A stretch of 12,459 nucleotides of DNA from positions 1-12,459 of the forward strand of contig JAFOHW010000027.1 of the NCBI GenBank assembly GCA_017421685.1, written 5' to 3'. This DNA comes from Candidatus Saccharimonadota bacterium. Its GTDB lineage: Bacteria > Patescibacteriota > Saccharimonadia > Saccharimonadales > Saccharimonadaceae. A program made the translations under genes and the position numbers. This document shows, piece after piece, positions 947 to 6,658 of this stretch (its first letter is position 1; the number at the start of each line of letters is the position of its first letter). The notes beneath the pieces were generated by a model, which was not told the origin of the DNA, ran no database searches, and worked only from the letters and a program-made list of their open reading frames with translations.

Positions 947-965
947 TGGTACACCGGGAGGGATT
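947..965 (-). repeat. Detached copy of the tRNA-Arg 3' end
   Basis: These 19 bases match the 3' end of tRNA-Arg (1131-1149) at 18 of 19 positions, in the same orientation, 184 bp away. They include the T-arm 3' strand, the acceptor 3' strand and CCA. The single difference is one C/G change in the acceptor strand. No 5' tRNA half lies next to it, so this is not a second tRNA gene. It closes the structured element at 966-1130. Confidence 0.9.
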
Positions 966-1130
966 AGACTTTTGCTTTAGCAAAAGTCTTCCACTGGGCG
1001 TCGCCTCGATAAATCTAAAATATGCTTTAGATTTATACTCGGCTCCTACAGCGGGCGAACCCTACGGGTTCTCATCTCTTTCGGCATATTAGAGAATTAA
1101 AAAAGACCCTTTGGGTCATTTTTAATTCTC
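966..1130 (-). ncRNA. tRNA-Arg-linked structured element (copy 1)
   Basis: Read on the minus strand from the tRNA, this holds four helices. P1 (1092-1130) starts at the first base after CCA and pairs GAGAATTAAAAA with its complement, with GACCC/GGGTC at the tip. P2 (1057-1071) is GAACCC-gta-GGGTTC. P3 pairs 1049-1054 with 991-996 (one G-U) and 1026-1036 with 1009-1019, separated by an internal loop containing GGAGCCGAGT and GAGGCGACG. P4 (966-989) is AGACTTTTGC against GCAAAAGTCT. The same order, loop sequences and P4 core recur after tRNA-Ser at 6349-6504, with changed but still paired stems. The helices are seen in the sequence. Whether the element acts as RNA or is a small mobile DNA element is not decided. 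No protein is encoded. Confidence 0.6.
1092..1130 (-). terminator. P1 hairpin, probable tRNA-Arg terminator
   Basis: On the minus strand the short GACCC-aaa-GGGTC stem is followed directly by six T, with an A-rich run before it, as in an intrinsic terminator. The flanking A and T runs pair too, giving 39 nt of near-perfect inverted repeat. It starts immediately after the encoded CCA. Confidence 0.65.
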
Positions 1131-1207
1131 TGGTACACCCGGAGGGATTCGAACCCCCGACCCTCTGTTCCGAAGACAGATGCTCTAATCCGCTGAGCTA
1201 CGGGTGC
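1131..1207 (-). tRNA. tRNA-Arg (anticodon UCG)
   Basis: A complete 77-nt cloverleaf on the minus strand with an encoded CCA. The acceptor is GCACCCG against CGGGTGT, with a terminal G-U pair, and the discriminator is A. The anticodon stem is TCTGT/ACAGA around the loop CTTCGGA, giving anticodon TCG at 1173-1171, which reads CGA and related arginine codons. The T-loop is GGTTCGAATCC. The predicted transcription start is about two bases before the mature 5' end. The 3' end is repeated at 947-965. Confidence 0.95.
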
Positions 1208-1215
1208 GCTCTGTT

Positions 1216-1224
1216 ATTATATCA
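1216..1224 (-). promoter_or_regulatory. Extended -10 promoter of tRNA-Arg
   Basis: The minus strand reads TGATATAAT, a perfect extended -10 box, whose hexamer (1221-1216) puts the start near 1209, almost at the tRNA 5' end. No good -35 is visible. The expected -35 position (about 1239-1244) overlaps the -10 box of the helicase gene on the other strand. Confidence 0.75.
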
Positions 1225-1232
1225 TATTATTG

Positions 1233-1241
1233 TGATATAAT
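1233..1241 (+). promoter_or_regulatory. Extended -10 promoter of the helicase gene
   Basis: TGATATAAT on the plus strand, with the hexamer at 1236-1241. The predicted start is near 1248, leaving only about 8 nt before the ATG at 1256 and no room for a Shine-Dalgarno sequence. It is arranged back-to-back with the tRNA-Arg promoter. Confidence 0.7.
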
Positions 1242-1255
1242 AAAGGCTAATATTG

Positions 1256-3718
1256 ATGGATGAGATAAATATTTTTTTAAGTGAATTAGAAAATTTGTAC
1301 CGAGAGCGGTACGTTTCTTTTAGTGACCTGGAAGAAGTAAAAGAAAAATTTTCGGATTTCGATTTAGATAAAAGGAAATTCTGTAAGGAAAAGGCCAAAT
1401 TATTTTTTAGTTTTCGGTTTAAGAGATTTTTAGAGTTGAGAAAAAAGACGAAAGCTTTGGAGTCATTTTTAGAAAAAAGAAATGAACTGAATCGCGATTT
1501 TATAAAAAAAGAACAAAGGAAAGTCTATCAAGTTGAAGGAAACAGCTTAGACCCACAACAAATTGAAGCAGTTGTTGCCTGTGAGGATGCGGAATTATTT
1601 TTAGCACCGGCGGGAAGTGGGAAAAGTGCAAGTTTATTGGCGAAAATTGATTATTTAGTAAATACGTTAAAAATTCCAGCAAGTAGAGTTTTAGTGATTG
1701 CTTTTACGAATAAAGTTGTTGCGGAGCTAAAAGAAAGAGTTTCTAATGAAGATGTAGAAATTCGAACCTTCCATTCGCTGGGAAACAAAATATTAAAATC
1801 TTACCAAGAAGAGGGGCAAACGAAAAAATTGCTTAGTGATGGGGAAATGAAGAGATTTTTCCGTGAGAAAGTCAAAGAACTAAAAACACAAAATGAAGAG
1901 TATGCGAAAAAATATAATAATTATTTACTTTTTTATCAGTCCGTTCCGGTAGATTTGGAAACTTTAAAAACCGAAAAAGAACGGATTGATTTTAATAGGA
2001 TGTTTTTACGTCAAACATTAAAAACGATTTCATTATCGAAAGAAAATCGAAATATAAAAAATCCAACTTTGAACCAAGAATATGTAAAATCCAAAGAAGA
2101 ACAAATTATTGCGAACTGGTTATTTATTAATAATATTGATTATGAATATGAAAGACAATATGAATTTTGCAATACCAAATATAAGCCGGATTTTACGATT
2201 TTTAATTTTTCGGAACCGATTTATTATGAGCATTTTGCGATTGGAAAAAATGGGAAGACTTGGTATGAAGGATATGACGAAAAAGTTGAATGGAAACGTG
2301 ATTTACACCAAAAAAATAATACGATTTTGATTGAGACTTATAGTTATGAATGGCAAGACGGGACATTATTAACGAATCTAGAAAAGAGATTAAAAGAGGC
2401 GGGGTTAAAAATAGAACGTAGACGAGAAAAAGAAATTACTGAATTGATTGAGAAGGATTTAAAATATCATGAGGATGCAGAATCTTTAGAATCGTTATTT
2501 ATTTCGGTTTTGCAATTGCAGAAAAGTGAGCGAGTCGAGATAGGGGAACTAGAAGAAAGGATTAAAAAAATTGAAAACCAATATATTAGGAAGAGAGCGC
2601 TCTTATTTTTTGAATTATATAAACCGATTTATCAGGGATATATCGAGTTTTTGAAGAAAAATAATTATTATGATTTTTCAGATATGTTGAATGAGTCGGC
2701 GGATATTGTAGAAAAATTGCCTGAGAATAGTTTAGATTATGGATATATTTTAGTGGATGAGGCGCAAGATTTGTCGACGAGTAAATATATACTTTTAAAA
2801 GCGATTTTAGAGAAATGTCGAAAGGTGAAATTGTTTGCGGTCGGGGATGATTGGCAATCGATCTATCGTTTTGCGGGAAGTAACTTAAAAGTGTTGGATG
2901 ATTTTGAAAAAATTTTTGAGTATGAAACTTATCGTGGATTAATCGAATTGACTTATCGCTTTGGCGAGCCGACTGCGTATATTAGTAATAAGTTTATTCA
3001 GAAGAATCCTTATCAATCTAAGAAAAATGTGGTAGCGAAGGTTAAGAAAAAAACGCCAATAGAAGTTAAATTAAATATGGAATATAAAAAAGAAGAACCG
3101 AGCGATTATGAGACGATGAATCGGAGGATCCAGGAACTTTACGAGGAATATGGAAAAGATTTACTGAAAAAGCGGATTCAAGTTATTTCGCGTTATAATC
3201 GTGACGTCAATAGGTTAATTGATAAAAAAAGTAGAAAATATAAAAACGCGAGGCTTGTTAGTGATACGGAAAATAAGAGGGAATTTGAATGGAAGATAGA
3301 CGGTACAAATTTAAAATTGACAATTCCTTTTTGCAGTATGCATAAAGCAAAGGGGATTACTCGGGATATAGTTTTTGTGATAAATATGAATGCAGGAATG
3401 TTAGGGATGCCTTCAACGAGGGACGATGATCCGGTTATGGCGACGATGTTGACAAAATTAGATCCGTATCCGTTTGCGGAGGAAAGAAGATTGTTTTATG
3501 TTGCGATTACGCGAGCAAAAGAAAAAACAATTATCATTTCGGATGCGAATCAAATTTCAAAGTTTGTTTATGAAATTAATCCGGATTTAGATAATTCTGG
3601 GGTTTTAGTTTGCCCAAAATGTAAGACGGGGATTTTGGTTAAAAGAACAAGAAAACGCGACGGTAAAACCTTTTATAGTTGTTCGAATTTTATTAATGGA
3701 TGTAAGTATACGGAATAA
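1256..3718 (+). CDS. UvrD/Rep-type SF1 helicase with inserted nuclease-like module and zinc ribbon
   Basis: An 820-residue ATP-dependent DNA helicase, presumably 3'-5' as in its family. SF1A motifs appear in order: Q-like DPQQIEAV near 100, Walker A APAGSGKS at 117-124, Ia VIAFTNK, DEAQD at 501-505, GDDWQSIYRFAGS from 530, SMHKAKG at 694-700, and ERRLFYVAITRAK at 743-755. Between motifs Ib and II, residues about 275-370 carry KPDF (D312), YYEHFAIG (E325), EWKRDLH (K347) and LIETYSYEW. This resembles the restriction-endonuclease-like module inserted in some UvrD-type helicases. The C-terminus is a four-cysteine zinc ribbon of the topoisomerase I type (C786, C789, C809, C816). The ATG at 1256 is preferred over the adjacent TTG at 1253. 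A role in DNA repair or processing is inferred. No terminator is evident before comEC, 139 bp downstream. Confidence 0.93.
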   Translation: MDEINIFLSELENLYRERYVSFSDLEEVKEKFSDFDLDKRKFCKEKAKLFFSFRFKRFLELRKKTKALESFLEKRNELNRDFIKKEQRKVYQVEGNSLDPQQIEAVVACEDAELFLAPAGSGKSASLLAKIDYLVNTLKIPASRVLVIAFTNKVVAELKERVSNEDVEIRTFHSLGNKILKSYQEEGQTKKLLSDGEMKRFFREKVKELKTQNEEYAKKYNNYLLFYQSVPVDLETLKTEKERIDFNRMFLRQTLKTISLSKENRNIKNPTLNQEYVKSKEEQIIANWLFINNIDYEYERQYEFCNTKYKPDFTIFNFSEPIYYEHFAIGKNGKTWYEGYDEKVEWKRDLHQKNNTILIETYSYEWQDGTLLTNLEKRLKEAGLKIERRREKEITELIEKDLKYHEDAESLESLFISVLQLQKSERVEIGELEERIKKIENQYIRKRALLFFELYKPIYQGYIEFLKKNNYYDFSDMLNESADIVEKLPENSLDYGYILVDEAQDLSTSKYILLKAILEKCRKVKLFAVGDDWQSIYRFAGSNLKVLDDFEKIFEYETYRGLIELTYRFGEPTAYISNKFIQKNPYQSKKNVVAKVKKKTPIEVKLNMEYKKEEPSDYETMNRRIQELYEEYGKDLLKKRIQVISRYNRDVNRLIDKKSRKYKNARLVSDTENKREFEWKIDGTNLKLTIPFCSMHKAKGITRDIVFVINMNAGMLGMPSTRDDDPVMATMLTKLDPYPFAEERRLFYVAITRAKEKTIIISDANQISKFVYEINPDLDNSGVLVCPKCKTGILVKRTRKRDGKTFYSCSNFINGCKYTE

Positions 3719-3759
3719 ATTTTGATGTGAAATATTTTGGTGGTTGAGGCGAATTTTTG

Positions 3760-3810
3760 GCGTAGGTTTTTTGTGTCTTTAGCGTAAGTTGGATAGTTTT
3801 AAGCGTAAGT
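3760..3810 (+). repeat. Three GCGTARGT octamers at 21-22 bp spacing
   Basis: GCGTAGGT (3760-3767), GCGTAAGT (3782-3789) and GCGTAAGT (3803-3810) lie in the gap before comEC. Spacing of about two helical turns would place them on one face of DNA, as in an operator array. They are short and could be chance. Confidence 0.35.
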
Positions 3811-3857
3811 GAGATGTTTGGCTTGAAATGATTTTTTTGGTGTGGTAGAGAAGGATT

Positions 3858-5336
3858 ATGTTTAGGCTTTTAATAGGGAAGATTCATCAGTCGTATTTTT
3901 TAGTAATGGTTTGTTTTGGAGTTATTTTTGGAATGATATTTGCGTTAATTTTTCGGATTGGATTTTTTTCTTCGTGGTTGTGGATGCTCTCCTCGATTTT
4001 GTTATTAGTTTTAATGTATTTTTTCCCGAGAAAAATATTTTTAGGCTTAGCGTTTCTCGTTGGAATAGTCATCAGCTTTTTTAGAGCTTCGAGTGAGATT
4101 TATGGCGGGGATTATATTAGTCAATTTCTGAATCAGACAATCTTAGTTAGCGGAGTCGTAAGCGGGGAGCCGGAGACGGATGAGAAAGAGACAAAAATGA
4201 AATTGTCGGATTTAAAATTCGGGGAAGAAGAAATTTTGGTTCAGGGAAGTATCTTTATTTCGGCGAGTCGAAATGAAGGAATTTTTCGTTCAGATAGGAT
4301 TTTGGTTTCGGGAAAGTTAACGGAGGGGTTTGGAATATATTCTGGATATATGTATCGGCCAAAGATTTTAAAGATTTTTAGACCGGAGCCGGGAGATTTT
4401 AGTTTAAAAATTCGAGATTGGTTTTCTGAGCGGATTCGGGGGTTAATTCCGGAGCCGGAAGTTGGCTTAGGGTTGTCATATTTATTAGGTTTAAAAAATG
4501 GACTTTTGGACGAGATTTCGGAAGAGCTTAGAATAGTTGGATTAGTTCATATTGTCGTAGCTTCGGGGACACATTTATCGATTTTGGTTGAAGTAGCGCG
4601 AAAGGTTTTTGGGAAAATTTCGAGATTTTCGAGTTTATTATTTTCGGAACTTTTCATTTTATTTTTTATGGCGATGGTGGGGTTTACGCCATCAATAATG
4701 CGAGCAGGAATAATGTCGGCATTAAGCTTATTGGTTGGATATACTGGGCGAAAATTTAAACCTTGGCGAATTATTTCGATTGTTATGGCGATGACGTTAT
4801 TAATCGAGCCGATGAACATGATTAATTTAGGATGGCTACTTTCTTTTTCGGCATTTATTGGGATTATGGTACTTGGTCCTAAGTTATCGGAATTTTTTTA
4901 TGGCGATAGGAAGCCGAAGTTTATTGCGTCGATGATTATCACGACGGTTTCGGCGACTTTAATGACTTTACCGATTAGTTTATATTATTTTGGGTCGATT
5001 TCGTTAGTTTCGATTGTTGCAAATTTATTAATTTTACCGACTTTGCCTTGTGTTATGGGGGCAGTATTTTTTGTCGGAGTTTTTTCGGGAGTTCCGATTT
5101 TTCAAGACACATTATCTTTTTTTGCGACGAAAATGCTGGATTTCCATATATCGGTCGTCGGGTTTTTTAGTGAGATGAGAAGTTTTTTAGTCGAAATACC
5201 AACTGGTCAGAGTTTAGTATTTTTGATTTATATAATTCCTGGGCTAATGATTATAATTGGATTTTTAAGGAGAAAAATGGTAAAATTAAGAAAAGAAAAG
5301 TTAACTTTAAGCGGGAGAGAAAATGTCAGGACATAG
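3858..5336 (+). CDS. comEC: ComEC/Rec2-family DNA uptake channel, without C-terminal metallo-beta-lactamase domain
   Basis: A 492-residue polytopic membrane protein. Three hydrophobic segments (about 12-36, 40-56, 60-76) are followed by a soluble beta-rich stretch (about 88-175), matching the N-terminal region of ComEC. The competence domain then has its usual landmarks: HIVVASGTHLSIL at 231-243, PSIMRAGIMS near 278-287, GWLLSFSAFIGI at 325-336 and SLVSIVANLLILP near 382-394. In the family ComEC carries single-stranded transforming DNA across the inner membrane. The usual C-terminal metallo-beta-lactamase-like domain is absent: the protein ends about 20 residues after its last helix, in a basic tail. 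The gene overlaps yebC by 14 bp, so the two are co-transcribed. GAAGGA lies only 2 nt before the ATG, closer than usual, so the exact start is slightly uncertain. Confidence 0.9.
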   Translation: MFRLLIGKIHQSYFLVMVCFGVIFGMIFALIFRIGFFSSWLWMLSSILLLVLMYFFPRKIFLGLAFLVGIVISFFRASSEIYGGDYISQFLNQTILVSGVVSGEPETDEKETKMKLSDLKFGEEEILVQGSIFISASRNEGIFRSDRILVSGKLTEGFGIYSGYMYRPKILKIFRPEPGDFSLKIRDWFSERIRGLIPEPEVGLGLSYLLGLKNGLLDEISEELRIVGLVHIVVASGTHLSILVEVARKVFGKISRFSSLLFSELFILFFMAMVGFTPSIMRAGIMSALSLLVGYTGRKFKPWRIISIVMAMTLLIEPMNMINLGWLLSFSAFIGIMVLGPKLSEFFYGDRKPKFIASMIITTVSATLMTLPISLYYFGSISLVSIVANLLILPTLPCVMGAVFFVGVFSGVPIFQDTLSFFATKMLDFHISVVGFFSEMRSFLVEIPTGQSLVFLIYIIPGLMIIIGFLRRKMVKLRKEKLTLSGRENVRT

Positions 5337-6024
5337 TAAATGGGCGACAACTAAAAGGCAGAAGGCGGTAGTTGATGCGAAAAGGGGAGCATTATTTACG
5401 AAAATTGGAAATCAGATTGCGATTGCGGCGAGAGGTGGAACGGATCCGGCGATGAATCCGAGTCTTGCGATGGTTCTAGAAAAAGCACGCCGAGCAAATA
5501 TGCCAAAGGCGAATATCGAGCGAGCGATTGCAAGGGCTTCAGATAAATCTAGCGCAGCCTTAATTGAGGAACTTTATGAAGCATATGGACCGGGGGGAGT
5601 TGGAATTATTATTGAAGTTGCGACAGATAACAAGAACCGAACTTTACCGGCGGTAAGGCATACTTTAGATAAGAATGGTGGAAGAATGGCGGATTCTGGA
5701 TCAGTTATGTTTCAATTTAGTAGGAAGGGGGTAATTGAAATTTCAGAGAAAGGCGAAGAGGCTTTAATGACTGTTCTAGAAGCTGGCGTTGAGGATGCGA
5801 CAGAGGAGGATGAAGGTATTACGGTTTATACGGAGCCTTCAGATTTGATGAAAGTAAAGGAATCTCTGGCTTCTTCGGGGCTTACGATTACTTCGGCGGA
5901 AGTTCAGTATGTTCCAACTTCGTATGTTCCGATAGAAGGTGATAATGCGGAAAAATTGGAAAAATTGCTTAATGCGGTTGATGATTTAGATGATGTTACA
6001 AATGTCTATACGAATGCGGAATAA
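5323..6024 (+). CDS. yebC: YebC/PmpR-family protein
   Basis: 233 residues, close to the family's usual length of about 240. The N-terminus MSGHSKWATTKRQKAVVDAK, followed by RGALFTKIGNQI, is the hallmark of the family. LVMVLEKARRANMPK-type sequence (here LAMVLEKARRANMPK) and YEAYGPGGVGIIIEVATDNKNRT follow, with NGGRMADSGSVMFQF before the acidic C-terminal domain. Members have been described as DNA-binding transcription regulators and, more recently, as factors acting on translating ribosomes; the sequence alone does not say which applies here. The start lies inside the 3' end of comEC (14-bp overlap), with GGGAGAG just upstream, so translational coupling is likely. A strong terminator follows. 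Confidence 0.96.
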   Translation: MSGHSKWATTKRQKAVVDAKRGALFTKIGNQIAIAARGGTDPAMNPSLAMVLEKARRANMPKANIERAIARASDKSSAALIEELYEAYGPGGVGIIIEVATDNKNRTLPAVRHTLDKNGGRMADSGSVMFQFSRKGVIEISEKGEEALMTVLEAGVEDATEEDEGITVYTEPSDLMKVKESLASSGLTITSAEVQYVPTSYVPIEGDNAEKLEKLLNAVDDLDDVTNVYTNAE

Positions 6025-6040
6025 TTAGAGCAGGATTTAT

Positions 6041-6073
6041 AAAAAATAGGCCCGGAAGTCGGGCCTATTTTTT
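6041..6073. terminator. Strong bidirectional terminator between yebC and the small basic gene
   Basis: A perfect 14-bp stem, AAAAAATAGGCCCG (6041-6054) with its complement at 6060-6073 and a 5-nt loop, has a T run on each strand. It ends yebC on the plus strand and the convergent small gene (stop at 6087) on the minus strand. Confidence 0.93.
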
Positions 6074-6086
6074 AGTTAAAATCAGA

Positions 6087-6191
6087 TTAGCGACCATTTT
6101 TTAAGCGAGGGTGTTTTCGCTTATCGCTGTGTTTATGGTTATTGTTTCGATTTTGCTTCGAAACCGGTTTCATCTTAAATTTTCTTGCCAT
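6087..6191 (-). CDS. 34-residue highly basic protein, function unknown
   Basis: The minus strand encodes MARKFKMKPVSKQNRNNNHK then HSDKRKHPRLKNGR and a TAA stop. Nearly half the residues are K, R or H, there is no cysteine and only two acidic or hydrophobic clusters at most, so it should bind nucleic acid or the ribosome. I do not recognise it as bL34, bL36, bTHX or another known small ribosomal protein. Support for a real gene comes from context. It has a near-consensus promoter (TTTACA, 17 bp, TGCTATAAT) whose -10 box ends exactly 6 nt before the ATG, predicting a leaderless mRNA. Its stop is 13 nt from a strong terminator that works in this direction. The promoter quality suggests high expression. 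It is too short for most gene callers. Confidence 0.65.
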   Translation of the reverse strand: MARKFKMKPVSKQNRNNNHKHSDKRKHPRLKNGR

Positions 6192-6197
6192 GATAGG

Positions 6198-6226
6198 ATT
6201 ATAGCATAAATAGGGAAAGATGTAAA
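6198..6226 (-). promoter_or_regulatory. Promoter of the small basic gene (leaderless)
   Basis: On the minus strand: -35 TTTACA (6226-6221), a 17-bp spacer, and an extended -10 TGCTATAAT ending at 6198. The ATG starts 6 nt later at 6191, where transcription should begin. Confidence 0.8.
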
Positions 6227-6227
6227 A

Positions 6228-6255
6228 TTGACAGGGGGAAGATTTATGATAAAAT
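6228..6255 (+). promoter_or_regulatory. Promoter of tRNA-Ser
   Basis: A consensus -35 TTGACA (6228-6233), a 16-bp spacer and -10 TAAAAT (6250-6255). The start is predicted at about 6262, one base before the mature tRNA. Its -35 box is one base from the -35 box of the divergent small-gene promoter. Confidence 0.85.
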
Positions 6256-6262
6256 AGTAGGT

Positions 6263-6348
6263 GGAAAGGTGGCCGAGTGGTTTATGGCACTGGTCTTGAA
6301 AACCAGAGAGGGAAACCTCCGCAGGTTCGAATCCTGTCCTTTCCGCCA
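6263..6348 (+). tRNA. tRNA-Ser (anticodon UGA)
   Basis: An 86-nt type II tRNA with encoded CCA. The acceptor is GGAAAGG with CCTTTCC and discriminator G. The anticodon stem is CTGGT/ACCAG, with loop CTTGAAA giving TGA at 6297-6299. The long variable arm is GAGGG-aaa-CCTCC, and the T-loop is GGTTCGAATCC. The 3' end is repeated at 6505-6525. Confidence 0.97.
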
Positions 6349-6385
6349 AATAATAAAGAAGACCCGAAGGGTCTTGTTTATTATT
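6349..6385 (+). terminator. P1 hairpin, probable tRNA-Ser terminator
   Basis: AATAATAAA (6349-6357) pairs with 6377-6385, and AAGACCC (6359-6365) with GGGTCTT (6369-6375), around loop GAA with one G-G mismatch. It begins at the first base after CCA. The T-rich 3' arm after the GC core can serve as a terminator tract. It is the counterpart of 1092-1130. Confidence 0.6.
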
Positions 6386-6504
6386 TGATTGGATAGGGTA
6401 AGAACCGTAGGTTTGGACGCCGGAGGAGGCGAGTGAAAAAGTTAAGTTTACTTAACTTTTTTTGAGGCGACGTCCGGCGTCATGCTTTTGCGAAGCAAAA
6501 GTAT
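6349..6504 (+). ncRNA. tRNA-Ser-linked structured element (copy 2)
   Basis: This has the same layout as 966-1130. P1 is 6349-6385. P2 is AACC-gta-GGTT (6403-6413). P3 pairs GACGCCGG (6416-6423) with CCGGCGTC (6474-6481), and AAAAAGTTAAG (6436-6446) with 6451-6461. Between those two helices is an internal loop with GGAGGCGAGT (6425-6434) and GAGGCGACG (6464-6472). P4 is CTTTTGC-gaa-GCAAAAG (6485-6501), extended by CATG/TATG with one G-U. Loop sequences match copy 1 closely, whereas the P1 base, P3 arms and P4 flank differ but still pair. That is a compensatory pattern typical of selected RNA structure. Transcription past P1 is not proven. Confidence 0.6.
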
Positions 6505-6525
6505 GAATCCTGTCCTTTCCGCCAA
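6505..6525 (+). repeat. Detached copy of the tRNA-Ser 3' end
   Basis: 21 identical bases shared with 6329-6349, 176 bp apart and in the same orientation. The copy runs from the T-loop (GAATCC) through the acceptor 3' strand and CCA, plus one further A. There is no tRNA 5' half beside it. Confidence 0.95.
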
Positions 6526-6601
6526 GCCAAAAGTAGCAGAAAAACGAAGTTTTTTAGCGAACTGAAGGGAATAAAAATTTGGAGCTTGCTCTGGTTTTTT
6601 G

Positions 6602-6658
6602 TTGATTTTATTCTGGTTATGGTATAATGAAGATATTATTGTCAACCAAAACGAAGGA
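6602..6658 (+). promoter_or_regulatory. Promoter and ribosome binding site of the second FISUMP gene
   Basis: The extended -10 TGGTATAAT (hexamer 6623-6628) has a possible -35 TTGATT (6602-6607) at a short 15-bp spacing. The Shine-Dalgarno AAGGA (6654-6658) lies 4 nt before the ATG at 6663. The in-frame ATG at 6627 sits inside the -10 box, so it cannot be in the mRNA from this promoter. Confidence 0.75.

Follow-up and report, generated by a model that had tools for sequence, protein, structure and literature searches.

tRNA-Borne Islands and the Units of the Window

Genomic islands borne on transfer RNA (tRNA) genes are recognized by an intact tRNA gene and a fragment of its 3' end that lies downstream in the same orientation, and the 2014 Islander paper gives a length filter of at least 2 kb and an integrase filter for such islands and states that the integrases known to target tRNA genes were all of the tyrosine type (PMC4383910). 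In this study, a contig of 12,459 nucleotides from a Candidatus Saccharimonadota bacterium of the family Saccharimonadaceae (JAFOHW010000027.1 of assembly GCA_017421685.1; hereafter the window, i.e., the whole stretch analyzed) was found to contain two short structured units, one behind tRNA-Arg and one behind tRNA-Ser, each of which ends in a copy of the 3' end of the neighboring tRNA. These units are a variant of the known tRNA-borne integrative elements and not a categorically new system, and those of the window are most likely non-coding relatives of larger, recombinase-carrying elements found at tRNA ends. The literature that was covered, from which subscription papers were mostly missing, held no description of this family.

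Like tRNA-borne genomic islands, the units leave the tRNA gene intact with a 3' fragment of it, oriented alike, downstream, restore the tRNA by means of the element itself and form tandem arrays (PMC4383910), and empty sites with a single tRNA end are present in relatives. Unlike the islands as far as the Islander paper describes them (i.e., at least 2 kb long, with an integrase, known tRNA-targeting integrases being of the tyrosine type), the units are about 60-210 bp long, have no integrase on board, occupy tRNA genes of many isotypes and possess a terminator-like hairpin (P0) and an arm complementary to the tRNA fragment, and it is serine recombinases that stand at tRNA genes in this genus (PMC4383910).

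Structure of the Units

An earlier note, made from the letters alone, had claimed that tRNA-Arg on the minus strand and tRNA-Ser on the plus strand are each followed, from the first base after CCA, by an element with the same helices in the same order. Both tRNAs were found by ARAGORN and Rfam, and both units do share one order after CCA, i.e., P0 (37-39 nt), the 5' arm, the hairpins P2, P3 and P4, and the tail copy (Table 1). The units are 184 nt (Arg) and 176 nt (Ser) long, and P3 reads CGAG...GAGGCGACG in both. In single-strand folding against dinucleotide shuffles, z was -10.2 for the Arg unit and -9.0 for the Ser unit, with 0 of 200 shuffles as good, and both predicted folds contain a four-way junction whose closing stem is formed by the arm and the start of the tail copy, a feature that the earlier note lacked. 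No open reading frame (ORF) of at least 80 aa lies over either unit. At gathering score, the only level at which the Arg unit was searched, Rfam matched the two tRNAs and no other known RNA family; below it, the Ser unit drew six weak matches, all far under their cut-offs.

The tail copies are real, at 17/18 (Arg) and 18/18 (Ser), and the extent given earlier for the Ser copy (21/21, ending at 6525) includes one base beyond the tRNA: identity covers 20 nt from G57, and the 21st base is an A after CCA. The Arg copy agrees at 18/18 with the tRNA-Arg(tcg) tail of a relative (locus L064), and, judged from this sequence match, it may preserve an older tRNA tail.

Table 1. Positions in the window of the two host tRNA genes and of the parts of the units behind them
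Feature	Unit	Position	Strand	Basis
tRNA-Arg(tcg), host gene	1	1131..1207	-	ARAGORN + Rfam
P0 terminator-like hairpin, from first base after CCA	1	1092..1130	-	fold
Terminator-like stem within P0	1	1117-1105	found on both strands	
5' arm, complementary to tail-copy start (ends approximate)	1	1074..1088	-	fold; arm test 7/10
P2 hairpin GAACCC-GTA-GGGTTC (core)	1	1057..1071	-	fold
P3 long hairpin, conserved internal loop GGAGNCGAG / GAGGCGACG (core)	1	991..1055	-	fold
P4 hairpin (core)	1	967..988	-	fold
Tail copy (tRNA-Arg positions 59-76)	1	947..964	-	17/18 to own tRNA
tRNA-Ser(tga), host gene	2	6263..6348	+	ARAGORN + Rfam
P0 terminator-like hairpin, from first base after CCA	2	6349..6385	+	fold
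Terminator-like stem within P0	2	6359-6375	found on both strands	
5' arm, complementary to tail-copy start	2	6391..6399	+	fold; arm test 8/10
P2 hairpin GAACC-GTA-GGTTT (core)	2	6402..6414	+	fold
P3 long hairpin, conserved internal loop (core)	2	6416..6481	+	fold
P4 hairpin (core)	2	6482..6504	+	fold
Tail copy (tRNA-Ser positions 59-76)	2	6507..6524	+	18/18

Specificity of the Tail Copy and the Arm

Among 188 tRNAs in the loci fetched, a sample biased towards the core P2-P3-P4, 76 were followed by a copy of their own tail at 16/18 or better, compared to none followed by the tail of another isotype (three at 14 or better), and chance is excluded as the source of the copies. In these 76 units, identity to the own tRNA rises between positions 58 and 59 from 0.37 to 0.96 and drops from 0.97 at position 76 to 0.46 at +1; among the 46 units with a core, the rise at the left edge is very steep (0.24 to 0.96). 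For 75 of the 76 copies, no better fit was present among 117 distinct tails, the exception being the Arg unit of the window.

As the arm is complementary to the copy, the 5' side of a unit is tRNA-specific too. In 45 units, the arm matched its own copy with a mean of 0.89 vs. 0.72 for the copy of another isotype, and the match was perfect in 17/45 own pairs vs. 0.5% of the pairings with another isotype's copy. A cruder test (at least 8/10) gave 41/76 with the own copy and 10/76 with another copy; this test is not clean because core-less units have imperfect arms.

Insertion at tRNA 3' Ends

The sequence that follows the copy of a unit was found directly after the CCA of the same tRNA in genomes without that unit. 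In the best 22 comparisons listed, some of which represent tandem copies, the maximum shuffled score was 13.5. A 62-nt unit at tRNA-Tyr in L058 scored 97.5 and 90 against L148 and L091, respectively; an 80-nt unit at tRNA-Ser in L183 scored 50, 50, and 45 against L187, L199, and L141; and the 176-nt Ser unit of the window scored 36.5 and 35.5 against L197 and L180, where the common sequence is itself a further hairpin-rich element. Other pairs were L123 vs. L105 (39.5), L106 vs. L216 (34.5) and L090 vs. L155 (34.5, a 37-nt match). Whole units are inserted between A76 of the tRNA and the former flank. In four of these pairs, those with L058, L106, L123 and L090, an older unit lies beyond the extra one as seen from the tRNA, and insertion there was thus tRNA-proximal, i.e., polar and beside a fixed platform. 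Tandem units were also observed, such as the 182-nt units at tRNA-Leu in L096 (182/182 identical, near a contig end) and the near-identical 83-nt units at tRNA-Gly. Given that a terminator-like hairpin opens each unit, the tRNA keeps a terminator-like stem after insertion.

The proposal of the earlier note that a small non-autonomous element is inserted at tRNA 3' ends is supported by these empty sites and by the many further copies found in relatives. Both had been named as checks: related genomes do hold many copies, and a single uninterrupted tRNA end is present in relatives at empty sites. The earlier observation is confirmed as real and general, while its interpretation is supported in part. 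Simple tandem duplication of the tRNA, with reduction to a minihelix, was also considered for the P0 repeats of L143, L144, L025 and L122, where insertion fits better because of the precise empty sites and the travelling core.

It should be noted that another hairpin-rich stretch, related to the sequence directly behind tRNA-Ser in L197 and L180, follows the Ser unit at 6525-6615 of the window; it is probably an older element.

Abundance and Host Range

Rfam gave 40 tRNA matches in the genome of the window. Of the 37 examined, in which two Pro tRNAs at contig ends are possibly double-counted, 15 had a copy of their own 3' end at 17/19 or better within 330 nt. In a relative (G018), 11/46 tRNAs had copies of 17-18/18 at 44-175 nt, and a control with reversed tails gave no match of at least 16 over 728,773 bases and 46 tRNAs. 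In five other genera, each represented by a genome examined in part only, copies of at least 16/18 followed 0/11, 1/18, 1/9, 2/28, and 2/17 of the tRNAs examined. The structured bodies of the units differ in other genera; the tRNA-Trp units of two of them (L306 and L317), for example, share a strongly conserved hairpin and tail and differ in the remainder.

A strict core pattern matched 116 stretches in genome_contigs (84,980 genomes according to the database description), of which 102 were titled Candidatus Saccharibacteria, many of them from animal gut or rumen, and one was titled only bacterium. The other 13, named as other bacteria, had no hairpin and a self-complementarity of 0.07-0.36, compared to 0.7-0.9 in most true copies. 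The pattern occurred in 16 of the 195 class genomes sampled and in 2/96 genera, both in the family of the window, which are lower bounds, as the pattern misses the window's own Ser unit. The same pattern gave no match in viral_contigs, and viral spread was rejected on that ground.

Unit Types and the Mobile Core

The four helices described in the earlier note are not the essential part: several unit types without the core share the same tail copy. Minimal units consist only of P0, arm, short loop and copy (e.g., 80 nt at tRNA-Ser), while other core-less units contain different hairpins and total about 60-120 nt. The type and the presence of a unit at one tRNA vary from species to species. The P0 starts and unit ends also vary between copies when compared by eye, and no conserved termini were noticed in this way.

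L084 and L118 belong to one genome; their cores, which stand behind tRNA-Gln(ctg) and tRNA-Arg(ccg), hardly differ, whereas P0, arm and copy are local. In L170, compared to L093, the whole unit of the tRNA-Glu site, including its copy, is present behind tRNA-Lys(ctt), with borders at both CCA ends, and the unit that follows tRNA-Arg(ccg) in L064, which has no core, bears the tail of tRNA-Arg(tcg). A unit can therefore travel with its copy, and the view that the duplication simply follows the target fails at these two tRNAs, although deletion between neighboring tRNAs could instead account for both sequence arrangements. Mean core similarity was 0.718 for the same genome and different tRNAs, 0.736 for different genomes and the same tRNA, and 0.657 for neither, which is not decisive; the nearest neighbor of a core stood at the same anticodon in 32/74 cases and at another in 42/74. 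These tallies are rough, as 11 rows bear the label His despite an intervening Gly tRNA.

The core (termed X core where it occurs elsewhere) was also found in-frame, in both orientations, inside 11 ORFs listed in relatives. Conserved ORFs with the core were noted in L061, L072, L082, L088, L107, L149, L050, L104, L124, and L123, and the listed ORF of L136 is short and unrecognised. Pfam identified five core-bearing proteins as a methyltransferase, a P-type ATPase, ValS, QueA and a diacylglycerol-kinase-like protein; further core-bearing ORFs are presumably TrmD, RecX, GyrA and Der, as read from their sequences and not from a search. The P2-P3-P4 core appears from these positions to be a second mobile palindromic element, similar in habit to the Rickettsia palindromic elements (RPE). 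Like RPE, the X core is a small palindromic insert in-frame in unrelated ORFs; unlike RPE, the window units follow tRNA 3' ends, close with a tail copy and belong to another host phylum (PMC10969869).

Several further observations concern inserts of this kind. The RecX-like genes of two genomes, so assigned by sequence reading, carry the X core in opposite orientations. The ValS ORF of L107 (1406-4621) contains a repeated in-frame insert of a second type, SEGVRSAAAREVAPAAHGDGPAGRAPKI, in two copies, which is perhaps another palindromic family. In L063 and L141, core copies lie inside an inverted repeat, TTAGCACT...AGTGCTAA, ahead of a promoter-like stretch; this repeat looks like CIRCE.

Serine Recombinases at tRNA Genes

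G018 contains a 9.7-kb element in which a serine recombinase ORF (PF00239, 2.4e-9) directly follows tRNA-Ala(ggc). Its cargo includes a C5 DNA methylase and an NgoFVII-type restriction domain, and its right end consists of a P0 hairpin, an arm and an 18/18 copy of the Ala tail at 9,739 nt. The fold of this right end is much like that of a solo unit of the same genome, with different letters. Four serine recombinase ORFs of G018 (C7, two in C9, and C2) end 29-64 nt inside the tRNA gene that they face.

Recombinases with PF07508 were found in 49/100 genomes of the genus. Among 30 recombinase loci examined, of roughly a hundred matches listed, a tRNA 3' end faces the recombinase in 18, compared to 0.08 expected per locus from random G018 positions (P 1e-12); the other 12 had no tRNA in their flanks. 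In 20 recombinase regions, several of them cut by contig ends and not all with an established facing tRNA, distal tails were present in G061 (Gln, 18/18 at 11,346 nt) and G052 (Asn, 17/18 at 8,576 nt); a third region had a 15/18 tail at 9,261 nt, one 16/18 match was another tRNA, and the reversed-tail control gave one match of at least 15. A recombinase at a tRNA 3' end together with a distal tail copy was thus found in relatives, and not in the units or the genome of the window.

The interpretation that we regard as rather probable is that the units are miniature non-autonomous integrative elements mobilized in trans, for which a serine recombinase is the best candidate. The 18-nt copy would be the footprint of an attachment site, i.e., a piece of the tRNA that site-specific recombination has displaced or regenerated, as in tRNA-borne genomic islands, and the arm and the copy could together form an imperfect inverted-repeat recombination site on which the enzyme would act in trans. 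This enzyme would most likely be a large serine recombinase: in the genus, elements of 8.6-11.3 kb that encode a serine recombinase use tRNA 3' ends, and one of them ends in a hairpin, arm and copy like those of a solo unit. Between their arm and copy, the units of the window also contain the structured core, apparently a mobile element as well. Such units are like miniature inverted-repeat transposable elements (MITEs) in being small, non-coding and mobile with an inferred partner in trans, and unlike MITEs in having no noticed conserved terminal inverted repeats and arms that differ with each tRNA (PMC10969869).

Several observations weigh against this interpretation. A distal copy of 17/18 or better that lay outside a tRNA was present in only 2 of the 20 recombinase regions, and three of the four recombinase-adjacent tRNAs of G018 had no distal copy of at least 15/18 within 18-33 kb. 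The genome of the window, which is 93% complete, gave no match to PF00239 or PF07508 in searches that covered the serine recombinase families; the enzyme there would therefore have been lost, been missed or be of another family. The left edge of the copy is softer in the 30 core-less units (0.57 to 0.97, with 0.4-0.63 at positions 54-58). No attachment site, circle or transposition was observed, and a 110-nt core between arm and copy matches no attachment site known to us. Finally, the covariation of the stems could also mean an RNA function.

Alternative Explanations

Transposition with an 18-bp target-site duplication is unlikely. An enzyme of another kind would cut at 58|59 on one strand and at 76|77 on the other and insert small palindromic DNAs, whose arms would later be made complementary by quasi-palindrome correction. 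Consistent with such an enzyme are the borders, which fall at 59 and 76 in all isotypes (both sharp where a core is present, the left one less so where it is absent), the 75/76 copies that fit no other tail better, and the tRNA-proximal polarity, since only the tRNA would keep the TTCRA motif. Plain target-site duplication, which the earlier note had suggested, does not predict a tRNA-specific 5' arm complementary to the copy. The mutual fit of arm and copy (0.89 vs. 0.72), the units in L170 and L064 that bear the tail of another tRNA and the lack of conserved termini noticed by eye argue against transposition, and Y1 transposase was found in 1/40 genomes. An origin from repetitive extragenic palindromic sequences and their associated Y1 transposases (REP/RAYT) was rejected, PF01797 being present in that one of 40 genus genomes and absent from the genome of the window.

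A functional RNA linked to the tRNA, which the earlier note had also proposed, is quite unlikely. The arm and copy would mimic an acceptor-T minihelix with CCA and the core would be an RNA domain, serving, for example, as a processing signal for RNase P or RNase Z or as a decoy. In 45 units, with G-T counted as paired, the closing stem covaries, and pairing was 0.87 in own vs. 0.60 in mixed combinations for the outer stem of P3 and 0.82 vs. 0.59 for the apical stem; the strong conservation of hairpin and tail in the tRNA-Trp units of two other genera also fits an RNA. It is less easily reconciled with the change of unit presence and type between species at one tRNA, with the empty sites, or with a terminator-like hairpin that precedes the structured part. 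Nor would a minihelix have to match the tRNA beside it in sequence, and Rfam gave no match above gathering score apart from tRNAs.

Integron cassettes are inserted in a polar manner, form arrays and have hairpin sites (attC) of variable sequence. The units resemble them in all these respects and differ in that the platform is a tRNA gene and most units have no ORFs. On one integron-like reading, quite improbable in our judgement, tRNA genes would be general cassette platforms without one fixed attachment sequence, targeted by serine recombinases that would recognize the universal T-loop/CCA frame and read the isotype only via 18-nt homology or the folded arm-copy hairpin. Small structured cassettes, and sometimes gene cassettes, would be inserted behind almost any tRNA. 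On another, which is very unlikely, the tRNA 3' end would act as attI and the arm-core-copy hairpins as attC, with a tyrosine recombinase working on folded single strands and some cassettes carrying genes. Structure is indeed conserved while sequence varies, insertion is polar where its order is visible and arrays form; in addition, L095 contains at 1934-3344 two ORFs, of the GNAT and isochorismatase families, between tRNA-Val(cac) and a unit with an exact Val(cac) tail, a possible gene-bearing cassette. Gene-bearing cases are few, though: seven distant tails were found in 514 kb, two of them inside called tRNAs, and they may be ordinary rearrangements. The recombinases found facing tRNAs are serine recombinases; the integron integrase, like the tyrosine recombinases, was not searched for.

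The primer-binding site of long terminal repeat (LTR) retroelements is 18 nt long. The copy is like this site in its 18 nt (tRNA positions 59-76) and unlike it in its sense orientation, with no LTR seen and no reverse transcriptase match in the genome of the window. A reverse transcriptase that copied the tRNA from CCA and stopped at a modified A58 would yield nt 59-76, and PF00078 reverse transcriptases, mostly in open frames of roughly 340-480 aa, occur in 39/60 genus genomes; this origin is barely credible and was rejected, because the window's genome has no PF00078 match and the methyltransferase family for 1-methyladenosine 58 (PF08704) was found in 0/40 genomes.

Implications

The near-exact footprints of positions 59-76 at many isotypes raise the question of how one mechanism serves any tRNA. 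The serine recombinases at tRNA genes depart from the tyrosine-only statement in the 2014 Islander paper, and an island finder with the 2-kb minimum and integrase filter given there would skip such units (PMC4383910). If the units are mobile, they would constitute a natural multi-site integration tool. In the two genomes examined for this purpose, units follow between a quarter and two fifths of the tRNA genes examined, and the tRNA 3' ends of these tiny epibiont genomes are therefore busy insertion sites.

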